A stretch of 64,000 bases of DNA from assembly GCF_003669035.1 (NCBI RefSeq), contig NZ_CP033070.1, positions 1,054,001 through 1,118,000 on the forward strand, in the 5' to 3' direction. The DNA comes from Chryseobacterium sp. 3008163. GTDB taxonomy: Bacteria > Bacteroidota > Bacteroidia > Flavobacteriales > Weeksellaceae. The translations under genes and the position numbers were made by a program. The notes beneath the pieces were generated by a model. The model did no database searches and was not told the origin of the DNA. It worked only from the letters and a program-made list of their open reading frames with translations. Shown here in pieces: positions 13,034-20,994 of the stretch (positions are counted from its first letter, which is position 1; each line of letters starts with the position of its first letter).

Positions 13034-15159
13034 TTATGAATTCAAATGAATTATAAATTCAGGAGACAATGAAATTATGCCTTCGCTTAAACTTTCCGGA
13101 TGCGTTGTAAAACCTTTTAACTTTGACGTTTTTCCCTTTAATACTAAATCCATCAGCTGCTTATCAGAAAGCTTTTTGCCAAAAATATCGAATGAAACTT
13201 TGAAGCCGCAGTTTTTAAAATCGGAACATCCGACTGCGGTTTTTCCTTTCATCAGATTGTGCGATTTGCATTTCGGGCATTTTGTTTCTTCCCAAGACTG
13301 TAATTCTTTTTTTACGGCTGGCTCACGTTTTTTCTTTTCTTTGACTTCTTCTTTTTCTTCGTGTAAAGTGAAGACTTTAGCTTTTCCGTCAACAACTTTT
13401 TTGGTCAGCTCCCTGATCATCTGAATCAACTCGTCTTTGAACTGATTGGCTTCATATTCACCACTCTCGATCTTACGAAGTTTCAGTTCCCACTCCCCTG
13501 TTAACTCAGGACTTTTCAGCAGCTCATCTTCGATCGTGTCGATTAACTGAATTCCTGTAGAAGTTGCGACCAAATTTTTCTTTTTCCTTTCTATATATTT
13601 TCTTTTGAAAAGCGTTTCGATAATGTTAGCACGGGTTGAAGGTCTTCCTATTCCGTTATTTTTCAACATTTCACGAAGTTCTTCGTCATCGACCTGTTTT
13701 CCTGCAGTTTCCATGGCACGAAGTAAAGTTGCTTCGGTGTACGCTTTTGGTGGAGAGGTTTTTCCCTGATGAATCATCGGTTCGTGCGGTCCGGTTTCCC
13801 CCACTTTAAATTCAGGAATGGTCTGTTCTTCGTCCTTATCTTTTTCTTTATCGGTAGGTTCCTCTTTGACATCTTTTGCATAAACTGCTCTCCAACCCGG
13901 CTCAAGAATCTGTCTTCCGCTTGTTTTAAACGGAATCGTTCCTACCTGAGCTTCCACCAAGGTATTTGAAATTTTACATTCAGGATAAAAGACGGCGATA
14001 AAACGCTTAGCGATTAAATCATAAATGAGTTTTTCTTCTCTGCTTAAATTCTGTGTCGGCGGAATTTCAGTCGGAATAATTGCATGGTGATCGGTTACTT
14101 TCGCATCATCAAACACGGCTTTCGATTTTGGAATAGGCTGTTCCAGCAATGGCGAAATCAAATCTTTGTAAATAACCATGCTTTGAAGAATTCCTCCGAT
14201 CTTTGGGTATAGACTTTCGGATAGATACGTTGTATCAACACGCGGGTACGTGACGTGCTTTTTCTCGTAAAGACTCTGAATATATTTTAAAGTACTGTCT
14301 GCAGAATAACCAAACTTTTTATTGGCCTCCACCTGAAGTCCGGTCAAGTCAAACAATCTTGGATTTTTTCTTTTCCTTCTTTAATTTCAAATGAAACAAT
14401 CTCAAAAGGATTAACCTTTAAATATTCTAAACCTTTTTCGGCTCGGTCTAATGTTTTTAAACGGTCGATTGCCGCATTGAAAATAACATCACGGTATTTG
14501 GTTTTAAGTTCCCAATATTCTTCGGTGGAGAATGCATCAATTTCTTTCTGACGCTGAACGAGCATTGCTAAAGTCGGAGTCTGTACTCTTCCGATGGATA
14601 AAACTGCTTTATTTCCTCCAAATTTCTTGGTAAAAAGTCTTGTGGCATTGATTCCCAACAACCAGTCTCCTATCGCTCTTGCATTTCCTGCGAGGTAGAG
14701 ATTTTTGTAATCTTCGGCTGGTTTTAATTTTTGAAAACCTTCTTTAATTGCTTCTTCCGTCAAGGATGAAATCCACAAACGCTGTACGGGTTTGTCGCAT
14801 TTTGCTTTCTGCAAAACCCAACGCTGAATGAGTTCTCCCTCCTGCCCGGCATCCCCGCAATTGATGACCTCATCACATTCGGCGACTAATCTTTCGATGA
14901 CTTTAAACTGATTTTCAACCCCTTGATTCGGAATTAATTTTATTCCGAAATTGGTGGGAATAATCGGCAGCAAAAACAAATTCCAAGATTTGTATTGCGG
15001 ACCGTAATCGTGAGGTTCTTTGAGGGTACAGAGATGTCCGAAAGTCCATGTCACGCAATAGCCGTTTCCTTCCATATAGCCTTGTTTAGGCATGGTTGCG
15101 CCCAATACTTTGGCAATATCTCTGGCAACGCTGGGTTTTTCGGCAATACAAAGTTTCAT
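13034..15159 (-). CDS. topB: DNA topoisomerase III (type IA), one-base frameshift
   Basis: Single-strand-passing type IA topoisomerase, about 708 residues when read across the break. N-terminal Toprim starts MKLCIAEKPSVARDIAKVLG, with the acidic NCGDAGQEGELIQ. The central part has SIGRVQTPTLAMLVQRQ. The active-site region reads VTYPRVDTTYLSE (catalytic Tyr), followed by GIGRPSTRANIIETL. A C-terminal Cys4 motif (CPKC...CSDFKNC) is zinc-finger-like. The frame breaks at the T6 run 14364-14369. One added base restores EKNPRLFDLTGLQ and makes the total length divisible by three. This is likely a sequencing deletion. If real, the protein would stop before its catalytic Tyr. Confidence 0.9.
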
Positions 15160-17197: not shown

Positions 17198-17218
17198 AGT
17201 CTACTAAAAAAGTAGACT
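17198..17218. promoter_or_regulatory. Perfect palindrome, candidate operator
   Basis: AGTCTACT-AAAAA-AGTAGACT, 8-bp arms and 5-bp spacer. It occupies the region where the -33 element of the downstream promoter (box at 17236) would lie, which suits a repressor or a replacement activator site. Confidence 0.5.
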
Positions 17219-17235
17219 AATAAAAATATATGTTT

Positions 17236-17243
17236 TATATTTG
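17236..17243 (+). promoter_or_regulatory. -7 promoter box of the methionine unit
   Basis: TATATTTG. Transcription would begin near 17250, 15 bp before the leader peptide ATG. No good -33 TTTG is visible. Confidence 0.65.
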
Positions 17244-17264
17244 CACCCGTAATCAGGTTTGGAA

Positions 17265-17369
17265 ATGAAAATGAAAACAACATTCAGATACAATACAATG
17301 AAAATGATCAACATCAATGATATGATGATGCAATGCTGTATGCCTTTATATGTGAATTTTAGTGGATGA
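17265..17369 (+). CDS. Methionine/cysteine-rich leader peptide
   Basis: 34-codon frame just after the promoter, with 8 Met and 2 Cys. Regulatory codons cluster late: residues 20-26 read MMMQCCM (17322-17342), followed by PLYVNFSG and stop. It lies directly before an attenuator hairpin and the EamA-metNIQ genes. This is the classical arrangement of translation-coupled attenuation, in which scarcity of charged Met-tRNA or Cys-tRNA stalls the ribosome. The composition is far from that expected of random frame in this AT-rich DNA. No named family is claimed. Confidence 0.75.
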   Translation: MKMKTTFRYNTMKMININDMMMQCCMPLYVNFSG

Positions 17370-17427
17370 CCTTACTTTTTATTATGACATATTTTTAAAG
17401 GCTTTACCACGTTGTAGAGCCTTTTTT
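17342..17427 (+). promoter_or_regulatory. Attenuator: antiterminator/terminator switch
   Basis: Terminator: AGGCTTTAC (17399-17407) pairs with GTAGAGCCT (17414-17422) with one T-G wobble, followed by a T6 run. Antiterminator: GCCTTTA (17342-17348) pairs with TAAAGGC (17396-17402), extended by TATG/CATA after a small bulge. This occludes the 5' arm of the terminator. The antiterminator's 5' strand starts immediately after the MMMQCCM codons, so a ribosome stalled there leaves it free, while one reaching the stop codon at 17367 covers much of it. Confidence 0.7.
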
Positions 17428-17457
17428 ATTTGCAAAAACCGATAAACAAAAAATAAC

Positions 17458-18455
17458 ATGAGTACTTTTAATTTAAAAAACAAATGGCTGATTCCCGTAG
17501 CATTTGCCAATATCTATATCATCTGGGGAATCACTTTCCTTGCCATATCATTCGGATTGACGGGATTTCCGCCTTTTATTCTTTCAGGGTTAAGATTTTT
17601 CGCTGCAGGAATATTACTGATCGGCTATTTATTAGCAAAAGGTGAAAAAGCTAATTCATTAAAAAACTGGTGGAAAAATGCAGTCACCGGAATTCTGATT
17701 CTGACAGGGGGAACCGGTCTTGTCGCCTGGGGGGAACAATATGTCACGGCTTCCGAAGCTGCCATTACGATTGCGACAGGTCCTTTCTGGTTTATAGCGA
17801 TTGATAAAAAAATTGGAGCTATTATTTTTCAGATAAATTTATCCCTATCGGATTATTATTAGGATTTGCCGGACTGATTTTATTCTTAAACGGAAGCGTC
17901 AACTCGCACACCGAAAATGTAAGCTCTTCGCTTCGGGTTACTGCATTTATTGTTTTGGCTTTAAGCTCAATTGCCTGGGTTATGGGATCTTTGTATTCAA
18001 AGAAGAATCCTGCGGATCATTCAACTTTTATGAATATTTCGCAGCAGTTGATTGTGGCGGGTTTAGCTTCATTTGCAGTTGCCTTTTTCAGAAGTGAATG
18101 GACTGGATTTTCAGTGGCAACAATTCCGCTTTCGGCATGGCTGGGTTTACTTTTTCTTATTTTCTTCGGATCAATTATCGCTTATATTTCTTACATCTGG
18201 CTTCTTTCGGTAAAACCTGCTGCCATCGTAAGTACGCATACTTATATCAACCCAATCGTAACCGTTATTGCAGGATTCATCATTGCCAATCAAACCATTA
18301 ACGGAAATCAACTGTATGGATTAGCCATCATATTAATTGGAGTTTTGTTAACCAATGTGACCAAATATTTCAGACTTTCAAAACGGTCAAAAGCCAAGAT
18401 CAGAAGAGTTGCAAGACATTTCGGAAGAATCAGCAGACCTTATCAACCCATGTAA
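17458..18455 (+). CDS. EamA/DMT-superfamily exporter, one-base frameshift
   Basis: About 332 residues when read across the break, ten-helix drug/metabolite transporter with two EamA repeats (first from IIWGITFLAISFGL, second from SSIAWVMGSLYSKK). The frame breaks at the A7 run 17806-17812. One extra A restores IDKKNWSYYFSDKFIPIG and a length divisible by three. As first gene behind the Met/Cys leader and joined to metNIQ (15 bp gap), it probably moves a sulphur amino acid or related metabolite. A basic C-terminal tail (RRVARHFGRISRPYQPM) is present. If the frameshift were real, the second EamA repeat would be lost. Confidence 0.85.
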
Positions 18456-18470
18456 TTTTAAAAAAATAAA

Positions 18471-19499
18471 ATGATAGAAATCAAAAACATATCAAAGACT
18501 TTTCATCAGAAAAAGCAGTCTTTTAAAGCTTTAGATGATGTCAATCTCAGCATTGAAAAAGGCGATATCGTAGGCATCATCGGATTTTCGGGAGCCGGAA
18601 AAAGTACACTGATAAGAACCGTCAATCTTCTGGAAAGACCGGATAACGGACAAATCATCATCAACGGAACCGATTTCACAAAATTAAAATCAAAACAACT
18701 GGCGAAAGAGCGTAAAAAAATCGGGATGATTTTTCAGCATTTCAATCTTCTTTCTTCAAGAACCGTTTTTGAAAACATTGCGCTTCCTCTGGAATTGGAC
18801 AATTTAAGTAAAGAAAAAATTCGAGACAAGGTCAGCGAACTTTTAAAAATCGTCGGCTTGGAAGATAAAGCCCATGATTATCCTAAAAGTTTATCGGGCG
18901 GACAAAAACAAAGGGTTGCTATTGCAAGAGCTTTAGCCAACGACCCCTATCTCCTACTCTGTGACGAAGCGACAAGTGCGCTGGATCCGGCAACCACGCA
19001 ATCTATTTTGCAGTTGTTGAGAGACATCAACCACCGTTTGGGAATCACGATTTTACTGATCACCCACGAAATGGAAGTCATCAAAGCGATCTGCAACCAT
19101 GTTGCCGTCATCGACAAAGGACAATTAGTAACAAAAGGGACTTTGAGCGAAATTATTTCTAACAAAGAAAATCCTATCATTAAACAATTTTTAAACTCAG
19201 GTGTTATGACTATACCGCAAGAACTCAACAAAAAACTACAGAAAGAGCCGCAAGCCGGACTTTTTCCGCTGGTTGAAATCGAATTAAACGAAAAAATAAG
19301 CGTTGAAGAACTGCTTTCAATCATTTACGATCAATATAAAATTCCATACAAACTTCTGAAAGCTGATGTAGAATATCTGGGAGACTCCAACTTTGGAAAA
19401 CTTCTTCTGCACCTGAAAGGTGAAAGTGAAGAAAACCAGAAAGCTATCTATTATTTTAATCAGAATAACATTCAAAATACTTTAAAAGGATATGCTTAG
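18471..19499 (+). CDS. metN: Methionine ABC transporter ATP-binding protein
   Basis: 342 residues. Walker A GFSGAGKST (38-46), ABC signature LSGGQKQRVAIARALA, Walker B YLLLCDEATSALDP and switch His in LLITHEME. A C-terminal NIL/ACT-like domain (from about residue 260) is the allosteric methionine-binding domain that closes the transporter when the cell is Met-replete. It overlaps metI by 8 bp, showing translational coupling. MetN energises uptake of methionine with MetI and MetQ. Confidence 0.95.
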   Translation: MIEIKNISKTFHQKKQSFKALDDVNLSIEKGDIVGIIGFSGAGKSTLIRTVNLLERPDNGQIIINGTDFTKLKSKQLAKERKKIGMIFQHFNLLSSRTVFENIALPLELDNLSKEKIRDKVSELLKIVGLEDKAHDYPKSLSGGQKQRVAIARALANDPYLLLCDEATSALDPATTQSILQLLRDINHRLGITILLITHEMEVIKAICNHVAVIDKGQLVTKGTLSEIISNKENPIIKQFLNSGVMTIPQELNKKLQKEPQAGLFPLVEIELNEKISVEELLSIIYDQYKIPYKLLKADVEYLGDSNFGKLLLHLKGESEENQKAIYYFNQNNIQNTLKGYA

Positions 19500-20148
19500 T
19501 GACACTGTACTTTCACTTCTTTCAAAAGGAGTCTGGGAAACCGTTTATATGACTTTTGTATCAGGATTTTTCGGTTTCGTGCTTGGTCTTCCCATCGGAA
19601 TTCTTCTTTTTATTACAAGAAAAGGACAGCTTTTAGAGAATACTATTTACAATAGAATTCTGTCGGTTTTGGTTAATATTTTCAGATCGATTCCTTTTAT
19701 TATTCTGATTGTCTGGATGATTCCCTTTACAAGATCTTTGGTAGGAACTTCCATAGGAATGAATGCAGCATTGGTTCCTCTAAGCATTGGCGCAGCACCA
19801 TTTATCGCAAGATTAGTTGAAAACAGTCTTTTGGAAATTCCAAACGGTTTAATTGAAACTGCGAGAGCTTTGGGAGCAACACCGTTTCAGATTATTAAAA
19901 AAGTTTTACTGCCTGAAGCTTTGCCTTCACTCATTAATAATGCGACGATCACTCTCATCACATTGGTCGGATATTCCGCAATGGGTGGAGCTGTGGGAGC
20001 CGGTGGATTGGGACAAATCGGGTATCAGTACGGATATATTGGTTATGATGCATTGATTATGAATCTTGTGCTTGGTCTTTTGGTCGCTTTGGTGTTTATC
20101 ATTCAGTTTTCGGGCGACCGCTTGGCGAAGAGGTTTGATCATCGATGA
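19492..20148 (+). CDS. metI: Methionine ABC transporter permease
   Basis: 218 residues, five to six membrane spans. The EAA coupling motif ETARALGATPFQIIKKVLLPEALP contacts MetN. Typical MetI features are TLITLVGYSAMGGAVGAGGLG near the C-terminus. It overlaps metN, and metQ follows after 37 bp. Confidence 0.95.
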   Translation: MLSDTVLSLLSKGVWETVYMTFVSGFFGFVLGLPIGILLFITRKGQLLENTIYNRILSVLVNIFRSIPFIILIVWMIPFTRSLVGTSIGMNAALVPLSIGAAPFIARLVENSLLEIPNGLIETARALGATPFQIIKKVLLPEALPSLINNATITLITLVGYSAMGGAVGAGGLGQIGYQYGYIGYDALIMNLVLGLLVALVFIIQFSGDRLAKRFDHR

Positions 20149-20185: not shown

Positions 20186-20994
20186 ATGAAAAAAATAAAA
20201 ATTCTAAGTTTAGCAGCAGGACTGCTTTTGTTCGGAGCGTGTAATTCACCTAAAAAAGATGATCCCAATTTCATCAAAGTCGGGATAACTTCCGGACCGG
20301 AACAACAGATTGCAGAAACTGCTAAAAAAGTTGCCAAAGAAAAATACAATTTGGAAGTGGAACTCGTTTCATTCAACGATTATGTAGTTCCCAACGAGGC
20401 TTTGAACAATGGTGATATCGATGCCAACGCGTTTCAACACGTTCCTTATCTTACTGAACAGTCAAAACAGCGTGGGTATAAATTAGCTGTGATTGGAAAT
20501 ACTTTCGTCTATCCGATTGTCGCTTATTCAAAAAGATAAAAAACATCGCCGAATTACAAAACGGAAGCACGATTGTGATTCCCAATGACCCAACCAACGG
20601 CGGTCGTTCTCTTCTTCTTTTACAAAAAAACGGACTTTTAAAATTAAAAGAAGGCATCGGATTATTGCCTAAAGTAACAGACATTGCCGAAAATCCGAAA
20701 CAGCTGAAGATTCTCGAAATAGAGGCACCTCAACTTCCGAGGGTTCTGGATGATAAAGAAGTCGTAATCGCTATTATCAATAATAATTTCGCAGCACAAG
20801 CCGGACTAGACGCCAACAAAAATGGAATCTTTAAAGAAGATAAAGATTCTCCTTACATGAATGTTGTGGTTTCACGAGAAGACAATAAGAATGATGAAAA
20901 AGTGAAGAACTTTTTAAAAGCGTATCAGTCTAAAGAAGTGGAAGACAAAGCCAAAGAAATTTTCAAAGGCGGCGCTGTAAAAGGCTGGAAGTAA
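20186..20994 (+). CDS. metQ: Methionine-binding lipoprotein, one-base frameshift
   Basis: About 269 residues when read across the break. Lipoprotein signal MKKIKILSLAAGLLLFGAC (lipid Cys19), then the NlpA-family core (IKVGITSGPEQQIAETAKKVAKE in two segments, NDYVVPNEALNNGDIDANAFQHVPYL). After the break come IVIPNDPTNGGRSLLLLQ and FAAQAGLDANKNG. The frame breaks at the A5 run 20530-20534. One extra A gives YSKKIKNIAELQNG and a length divisible by three. The protein captures methionine for MetNI. A strong terminator follows at 21138. Confidence 0.92.

Follow-up and report, generated by a model that had tools for sequence, protein, structure and literature searches.

Which signal switches on methionine uptake in Chryseobacterium? 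In the usual account, methionine genes respond to methionine through SAM riboswitches or repressors. In Chryseobacterium sp. 3008163, the methionine transporter genes metNIQ and an EamA-type transporter gene are preceded by a leader of about 200 nt in which no Rfam family (SAM-I, other riboswitch or T-box) reached its gathering score. A first interpretation, made from the letters alone (hereafter the sequence-only reading), had proposed that this leader works by the logic of the his and trp attenuators. The locus lies in a 64 000-nucleotide stretch of contig NZ_CP033070.1 (positions 1,054,001 to 1,118,000), which was analysed as a whole and is called the window below. We compared the leader with its counterparts in the genus and in other Flavobacteriales, and we ask here which of its parts are conserved, which helix could compete with the terminator and to what the switch would respond.

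A Met- and Cys-rich leader ORF followed by a terminator

The elements of the locus are collected in Table 1. The promoter box, the 34-codon frame with its 8 Met and 2 Cys codons clustered as MMMQCCM, and the strong terminator are all present as the sequence-only reading had described them. We take the promoter box to be of the Bacteroidota TAnnTTTG type; a loose box of that kind is found at most 170 nt upstream in 141 of 142 leaders.

Table 1. Features of the metNIQ leader region (coordinates are those of the window)
Feature	Position	Strand	Remarks
Palindrome GTCTACTAAAAAAGTAGACT, candidate operator	17199-17218		just upstream of the promoter box
Promoter -7 box TATATTTG	17236-17243	+	presumably Bacteroidota TAnnTTTG type
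Leader peptide ORF	17265-17369	+	34 codons, MKMKTTFRYNTMKMININDMMMQCCMPLYVNFSG; ATG 17265, stop TGA 17367-17369
Control codons Met-Met-Met-Gln-Cys-Cys-Met (MMMQCCM)	17322-17342	+	ORF codons 20-26
Competing helix of the sequence-only reading	17342-17352 with 17388-17402	+	stable in the window; covariation absent in relatives
Antiterminator 5' strand GUGG-A-UGACCUU (predicted)	17362-17373	+	overlaps last codons and stop codon; compensatory changes
Antiterminator 3' strand AAGG-CU-UUACCAC (predicted)	17398-17410	+	shared with terminator 5' arm and loop
Intrinsic terminator stem-loop	17397-17424	+	11-pair stem, loop CACGUU, U run to 17427
EamA-type transporter	17458-18455	+	frame split, 17458-17862 and 17955-18455
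metN, methionine ABC transporter ATPase	18471-19499	+	best NCBIfam TIGR02314, 450 bits, below cut-off 499.7
metI, methionine ABC transporter permease	19492-20148	+	NF008049, 381.7 bits, cut-off 212
metQ lipoprotein	20186-20994	+	frame split, 20186-20539 and 20575-20994; second piece matches MetQ

DNA similarity to the leader is found throughout most of the genus. The similarity matches were sampled rather than fetched in full, and 20 that had initially been omitted were added later. The main set consisted of 103 loci (30 first and 73 later ones, L002 having been removed from the first 104); from a later group of 40 loci, L309 was left out (its ORF was rejected by the parser, though a Met/Cys leader is readable there). 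An ORF of 29-36 codons was found at 103 of 103 loci, which is not in itself evidence, because the loci were picked by DNA similarity and the script kept the most Met/Cys-rich ORF at each. The alternative frames of these leaders are mostly closed (frame +1 is open in none and frame +2 in six). Of the control codons, MM is present in 102 leaders and CC in 59; Met-Pro is found in 93, and a C-terminal Gly ahead of the stop codon is common. At least four Met or Cys codons in six were counted in 88 of the 103 leaders, versus 8 of 5405 ATG-started background small ORFs (772 from the window and 4633 from loci L032-L104), a comparison that somewhat favours the leaders since the richest ORF was selected at each leader locus. 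None of these eight background ORFs has a terminator within 130 nt, i.e. 0 of 5405 is leader-like. Constraint on the peptide itself is weak: 64 synonymous changes were found versus 48.6 expected (codons with a single change, 55 close pairs).

The terminator folds at -13.0 kcal/mol, and four of its pairs show two-sided changes (29 cells) in an alignment of 47 leader sequences. The 2-kb stretch holds 4 terminator-like sites, versus 1.3 expected. A near-identical terminator stem, AAAGGCTTTAC...GTAGAGCCTTTTTT, ends the terC gene (Pfam TerC; L002, the same site as L106). The terC loop lacks CCAC, which suggests that the CCAC of the leader loop serves the antiterminator.

The leader goes with metN throughout the genus

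A covariance model (R1) built from the 47 leader sequences matched, under the stricter filters, in 166 of 173 Chryseobacterium genomes; the seven leaderless genomes (G145, G183, G193, G239, G249, G288 and G290) have no metN match at 1e-90. In an order-level draw, the leader was present in 40 of 42 members of the genus and metN in the same 40, while G145 and G183 had neither. In a wider set of metN genes, all 11 Chryseobacterium loci carried the leader, several of them in genomes already counted. Since the leader directly precedes metN in 49 of the 103 loci (its stop codon being 79-119 nt before metN) and is separated from it by the EamA gene in 52, it goes with metNIQ; the association claimed by the sequence-only reading thus holds for metNIQ, but the EamA gene is not a core part of it. 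The remaining two loci are a contig end and a reduced metN. The latter (L103, in G202) is an ORF with a C-terminal NIL domain (Pfam PF09383), and the leader in front of it is decayed, both Met-Pro and the match to the antiterminator having been lost, in what is a single case. The regulated genes agree with the amino acid of the control codons, as judged by their MetN, MetI and MetQ matches.

A search of the own genome with the covariance model gave 19 matches at E ≤ 5, and no second copy of the leader was found among those inspected. The best other match (41.7 bits) is the terC terminator, which by eye is, like L107-L109 and L111-L114, a gene end or a chance match. Several conserved genes are split between frames in this assembly, namely a DNA topoisomerase (13034-15159), EamA, metQ and hisG (G000:C1:4497489-4497952), which suggests small assembly indel errors rather than real gene loss.

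Two candidate helices that could compete for the terminator arm

The sequence-only reading had drawn the competing helix between the end of the Met/Cys codons and the base of the terminator (17342-17352 with 17388-17402). This helix does fold stably in the window, the region 17342-17402 giving -10.9 kcal/mol, but with 79.9% of cells paired and no two-sided change in the 47 sequences it did no better than shuffles. Covariation, which was to be looked for in both helices, is therefore a property of the terminator and not of the competing helix as drawn.

The best-supported antiterminator is a different pairing, predicted between 17362-17373 and 17398-17410. In the same 47 sequences, GUGG:CCAC plus CCUU:AAGG were paired in 95.2% of cells and three pairs were changed on both sides (three cells), a result seen in 0 of 500 shuffles. 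Taken alone, the count of two-sided pairs is modest: with the partner strand displaced by 1-3 columns there were still 0-2 of them, though only 32-67% of cells then paired. Sequences added later strengthened the support. Compensatory variants are GGAG with CUCC (L029, L050), CAUGG with CCAUG (L056), UUUGG with CCAAG (L300), UGCGG with CUGCA (L077), UGUAG with CUACA (L314) and, weaker, GGUAG with CUACC (L051). Seventeen distinct variant tail/arm pairs, not fully independent by descent, were drawn from 139 of the 142 leaders (three were omitted where the arm pattern failed). With their own partner they gave a mean of -6.3 kcal/mol, versus -4.3 kcal/mol with permuted partners (0 of 20 000 permutations); when ranked by longest helix run, the same variants gave p = 0.00035. 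The own arm was better than the consensus arm in 10 variants (trivially so for L103, at 0.0 kcal/mol), equal in 4 and worse in 3. Lastly, the tail-to-arm duplex beat shuffled tails (p ≤ 0.05) in 46.6% of the 103 leaders versus 4% of 75 gene-end terminators. Lack of conservation of the short frame or of compensatory changes in relatives had been named as what would speak against the attenuator; the frame is kept across the genus and compensatory changes are present in several of its lineages.

It is this comparison within the genus, and not fold energy in the window alone, that singles out the predicted antiterminator. In the window by itself the duplex is no better than with shuffled tails (p = 0.144) and its energy, -6.3 kcal/mol, is to be set against those of the terminator and of the originally drawn helix; nor was it predicted by RNAalifold on 96 sequences (the 103 leaders minus seven duplicates). 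Folding of partial transcripts gave two different answers. With RNA 17357-17411 the best structure is the 17362-17373/17398-17410 antiterminator; with RNA starting at 17343, 17331 or 17246 and ending at 17411, structures built on the originally drawn helix were obtained.

Could the originally drawn helix then be the working antiterminator, or the first one to form after an early stall at the Met codons? It would likewise block the terminator. It is the stabler of the two in the window and the best fold once the RNA is free downstream of its start at 17343. When RNAalifold was given transcripts ending before the 3' arm of the terminator, three of its pairs appeared in the consensus, at -0.15 kcal/mol. 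The GCCU that it uses (17342-17345) is itself conserved: the Pro codon after the control codons is CCT in 91 of the 93 leaders with Met-Pro, versus 1932 of 4831 Pro codons overall (counted at the same loci in ORFs of any frame that reach 120 codons), and this could mean a second role for GCCU. Against it stand the pairing statistics given above, the loss of the pair adjoining GCCU in 37 of 47 sequences and the fact that a ribosome on Cys24, Cys25 or Met26 would cover GCCU. On balance we consider such a role for it unlikely. Since the predicted fold depends on where the free RNA begins, a division of labour may exist, in which the originally drawn helix acts after a stall at the earliest Met codons, and the 17362-17373 antiterminator after any stall. 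A pseudoknot combining the originally drawn helix with GUGG:CCAC was dropped, because the nested GUGG-UGACCUU/AAGG-UUACCAC helix accounts for the conservation of both GUGG and CCUU.

A model for attenuation and its alternatives

In the his, trp and thr attenuators of Proteobacteria, the position of the ribosome on a leader peptide ORF selects terminator or antiterminator. The Chryseobacterium leader resembles them in its short ORF, control codons, intrinsic terminator and overlapping antiterminator, with ribosome position as the presumed deciding element. It departs from them in that Met and Cys codons occur together, in that the antiterminator strand overlaps the stop codon and in that no protecting or pausing 1:2 hairpin is seen. 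Comparison of sequences establishes the ORF, the control codons, the terminator, the antiterminator pairing, the geometry and the tie to metN. We think it very probable that the leader is a ribosome-mediated transcription attenuator that controls metNIQ, together with EamA where present, and senses the supply of Met and Cys. The his/trp-type logic put forward by the sequence-only reading is thereby kept, with Met/Cys codons, terminator and overlapping antiterminator in front of uptake genes; the helix as drawn is not.

We infer that the leader is translated, that ribosomes stall on it and that read-through rises as a result, as follows. When charged Met- and Cys-tRNAs are plentiful, the ribosome behind RNA polymerase would reach the leader stop codon and cover 17362-17373, so that the terminator would form and transcription would stop. 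When they are scarce, the ribosome would stall on MMMQCCM and leave the antiterminator strand free to pair with 17398-17410; the terminator would then be blocked and the uptake genes transcribed. A ribosome covers about 15 nt each way. On this figure, the ribosome that has reached the stop codon would cover about 17349-17380, and so the whole 5' strand of the antiterminator, and one stalled anywhere in MMMQCCM should reach no further than about 17357 and leave that strand exposed.

A 1:2 pause or protector hairpin is a part of the trp and his attenuators, though not of all attenuators. Here, RNAalifold on transcripts ending at columns 60-84 placed no helix of the consensus ahead of the antiterminator, and leader RNA 17246-17380 showed no sign of a 1:2 hairpin, as 199 of 200 shuffles folded equally well or better. 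Because no such protecting hairpin is seen, the operon would be expected to stay on likewise when too little fMet is available for initiation. The leader also raises the question of how a sensor of methionine starvation can work although the start of translation itself needs methionine.

Two other explanations dispense with the reading of individual codons. TnaC is an example of a nascent peptide that stalls the ribosome in response to tryptophan, and the leader peptide might similarly arrest the ribosome in response to a small molecule (SAM, Met, Cys or other). The Met-Pro of 93 of 103 leaders and the frequent Gly at the C-terminal end before the stop would suit such a peptide. The C-terminal residues are, however, accounted for by the antiterminator strand, and no motif beyond Met/Cys is, by eye, common to the leaders of other genera (see below). 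Decoding of the codons fits better, since the peptide is weakly constrained and, as far as inspection shows, only its Met/Cys content is kept across genera; we regard an arrest peptide as quite improbable. More improbable still, to the point of being hardly credible, is a terminator accompanied by a small ORF that arose by chance or is translated without further effect, with regulation exerted by the upstream palindrome alone. The palindrome is conserved at the promoter (its strict pattern lies upstream of 110 of 142 leaders), but this explanation has to face the rarity of leader-like ORFs in the background, the covariation of the antiterminator and the separate Met/Cys leaders of other genera.

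Differently worded leaders precede metN in other Flavobacteriales

Among 22 metN loci of other Flavobacteriales genera, 16 carry a Met/Cys or Cys-Cys leader that is differently worded. In g23 it reads MIMCYQMAMP or IIMCYQMAMP (2 of 2 loci); in Flavobacterium MMCC-like leaders were found at 8 of 10 loci, two of them reading MKCC or SMCC, and no leader was seen at the other two; in g9 tandem Cys codons are present at 5 of 5 loci. No leader was seen at metN in g16 (one locus), g17 (two) and g21 (one). Four further Flavobacterium loci also have a leader (L178 reads NNCC; L180 is G575 again). In g26 (G126), two ORF-plus-terminator units stand in tandem before EamA and metN (L144, G126:C1:2146300-2151600); their sequences differ and their logic is the same, the antiterminator predicted for one having 11 contiguous pairs and that for the other 15 pairs in three runs. 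An antiterminator is well supported in g26 and g23 (p 0.000-0.010). In Flavobacterium the support varies from locus to locus (p 0.002-0.37, 10 loci), and in g9 no antiterminator could be demonstrated (p 0.13-0.77, 5 loci).

When 11 of 12 retrieved stretches matched by the covariance model in other genera and families were inspected (all but L150), only those of G126 and G447 proved to be Met/Cys leaders. At 64 metN loci from outside Chryseobacterium and Flavobacterium, among them ones of Dyadobacter, Pedobacter and Apibacter, no ORF with at least three Met/Cys codons in six plus a terminator was found within 450 nt. Since the scan was confined to the 450 nt immediately upstream of metN (a shorter stretch in L222 and L255), it also failed to pick up the leader at 8 of the 11 Chryseobacterium loci, where it lies further upstream.

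A broader proposal, which we hold only tentatively and judge somewhat less probable than its contrary, is that of a dual sensor of Cys- and Met-tRNA charging, also on, for lack of a protecting hairpin, when fMet start fails, which would have arisen or been rebuilt repeatedly before metN of Flavobacteriales (and, by a printed proposal, in Streptomyces), once in tandem.

Relation to known leaders

A metL leader has been proposed before metNIQ of Streptomyces lividans TK24 (PMC8079986). It has the same target, and the peptide as printed ends in ...RCMCRRMCAF, i.e. mixed Cys and Met, although the residues are called methionines and threonines in that paper. It differs in belonging to an actinobacterium, in being a single-genome annotation and in having no typical Rho-independent terminator; the two leaders are likened here by description and not by sequence relation. 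Leader-peptide attenuation, the same mechanism, has been suggested for amino-acid biosynthesis operons of a flavobacterium, Flavobacterium psychrophilum (PMC9723704), the main text of which does not contain the word methionine. In Rhodobacterales, ribosome-mediated attenuation was proposed for the Cys leader uORFC-8-2 before cysS (PMC8632094); it shares tandem Cys codons and a terminator with the present leader, and differs in having Cys only, an aminoacyl-tRNA synthetase gene as target, an alphaproteobacterial host and control codons inside a stem. Actinobacterial cys operons have leaders with Cys runs (PMC1262725), in which a short ORF again has its Cys codons close to the stop codon; in the part of that paper available to us, the mycobacterial ones are without a conserved terminator hairpin, Met codons are unmentioned and conserved RNA structures before methionine operons are reported as not seen. 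A search of the open literature, taken as excluding supplements and most subscription papers, brought up no account of a Met/Cys leader from Bacteroidota. The trick is classic, and it is the Met plus Cys version in this bacterial group for which we found no such account. Its comparative analysis brings covariation-backed evidence for leader-peptide attenuation in Bacteroidota.

Other regulatory elements in the same genome

SAM-I riboswitches (RF00162) likewise precede methionine-related genes, and differ from the leader by binding SAM directly. None is present at the leader locus, as the sequence-only reading had stated, but two occur elsewhere in the genome, so that the leader adds to SAM sensing rather than being an alternative to it. 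One precedes a gene that, among NCBIfam models, matches those of MetX best, at scores below cut-off; the other precedes a SusC/RagA-type TonB receptor. If our reading of the leader is true, the metNIQ transporter would answer to the charging of tRNA, with metX in the same genome placed downstream of a SAM-I riboswitch, and this raises the question of whether methionine uptake and synthesis answer to different signals.

The palindrome GTCYAY-N6-8-RTRGACTAAT has three sites in this genome, at the metN leader, at a 1-Cys peroxiredoxin and at the SusC/RagA-type TonB receptor with the SAM riboswitch (L258 and L259 for the latter two), and is a candidate operator; the genes that it precedes may form a small sulphur regulon. 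In the window, the only Rfam matches at gathering score are a Cobalamin riboswitch (RF00174, 59279-59459, + strand, 117 bits) and a Flavo-1 RNA, a flavobacterial motif (RF01705, 24308-24383, + strand, 64 bits).

The hisG gene of the same genome (L328, G000) is preceded by a His-rich leader, MKPNFSTLHHYHHLS, and a terminator hairpin of -11.1 kcal/mol, which together are likely to constitute a his attenuator; attenuation may thus be a general habit in this genome.
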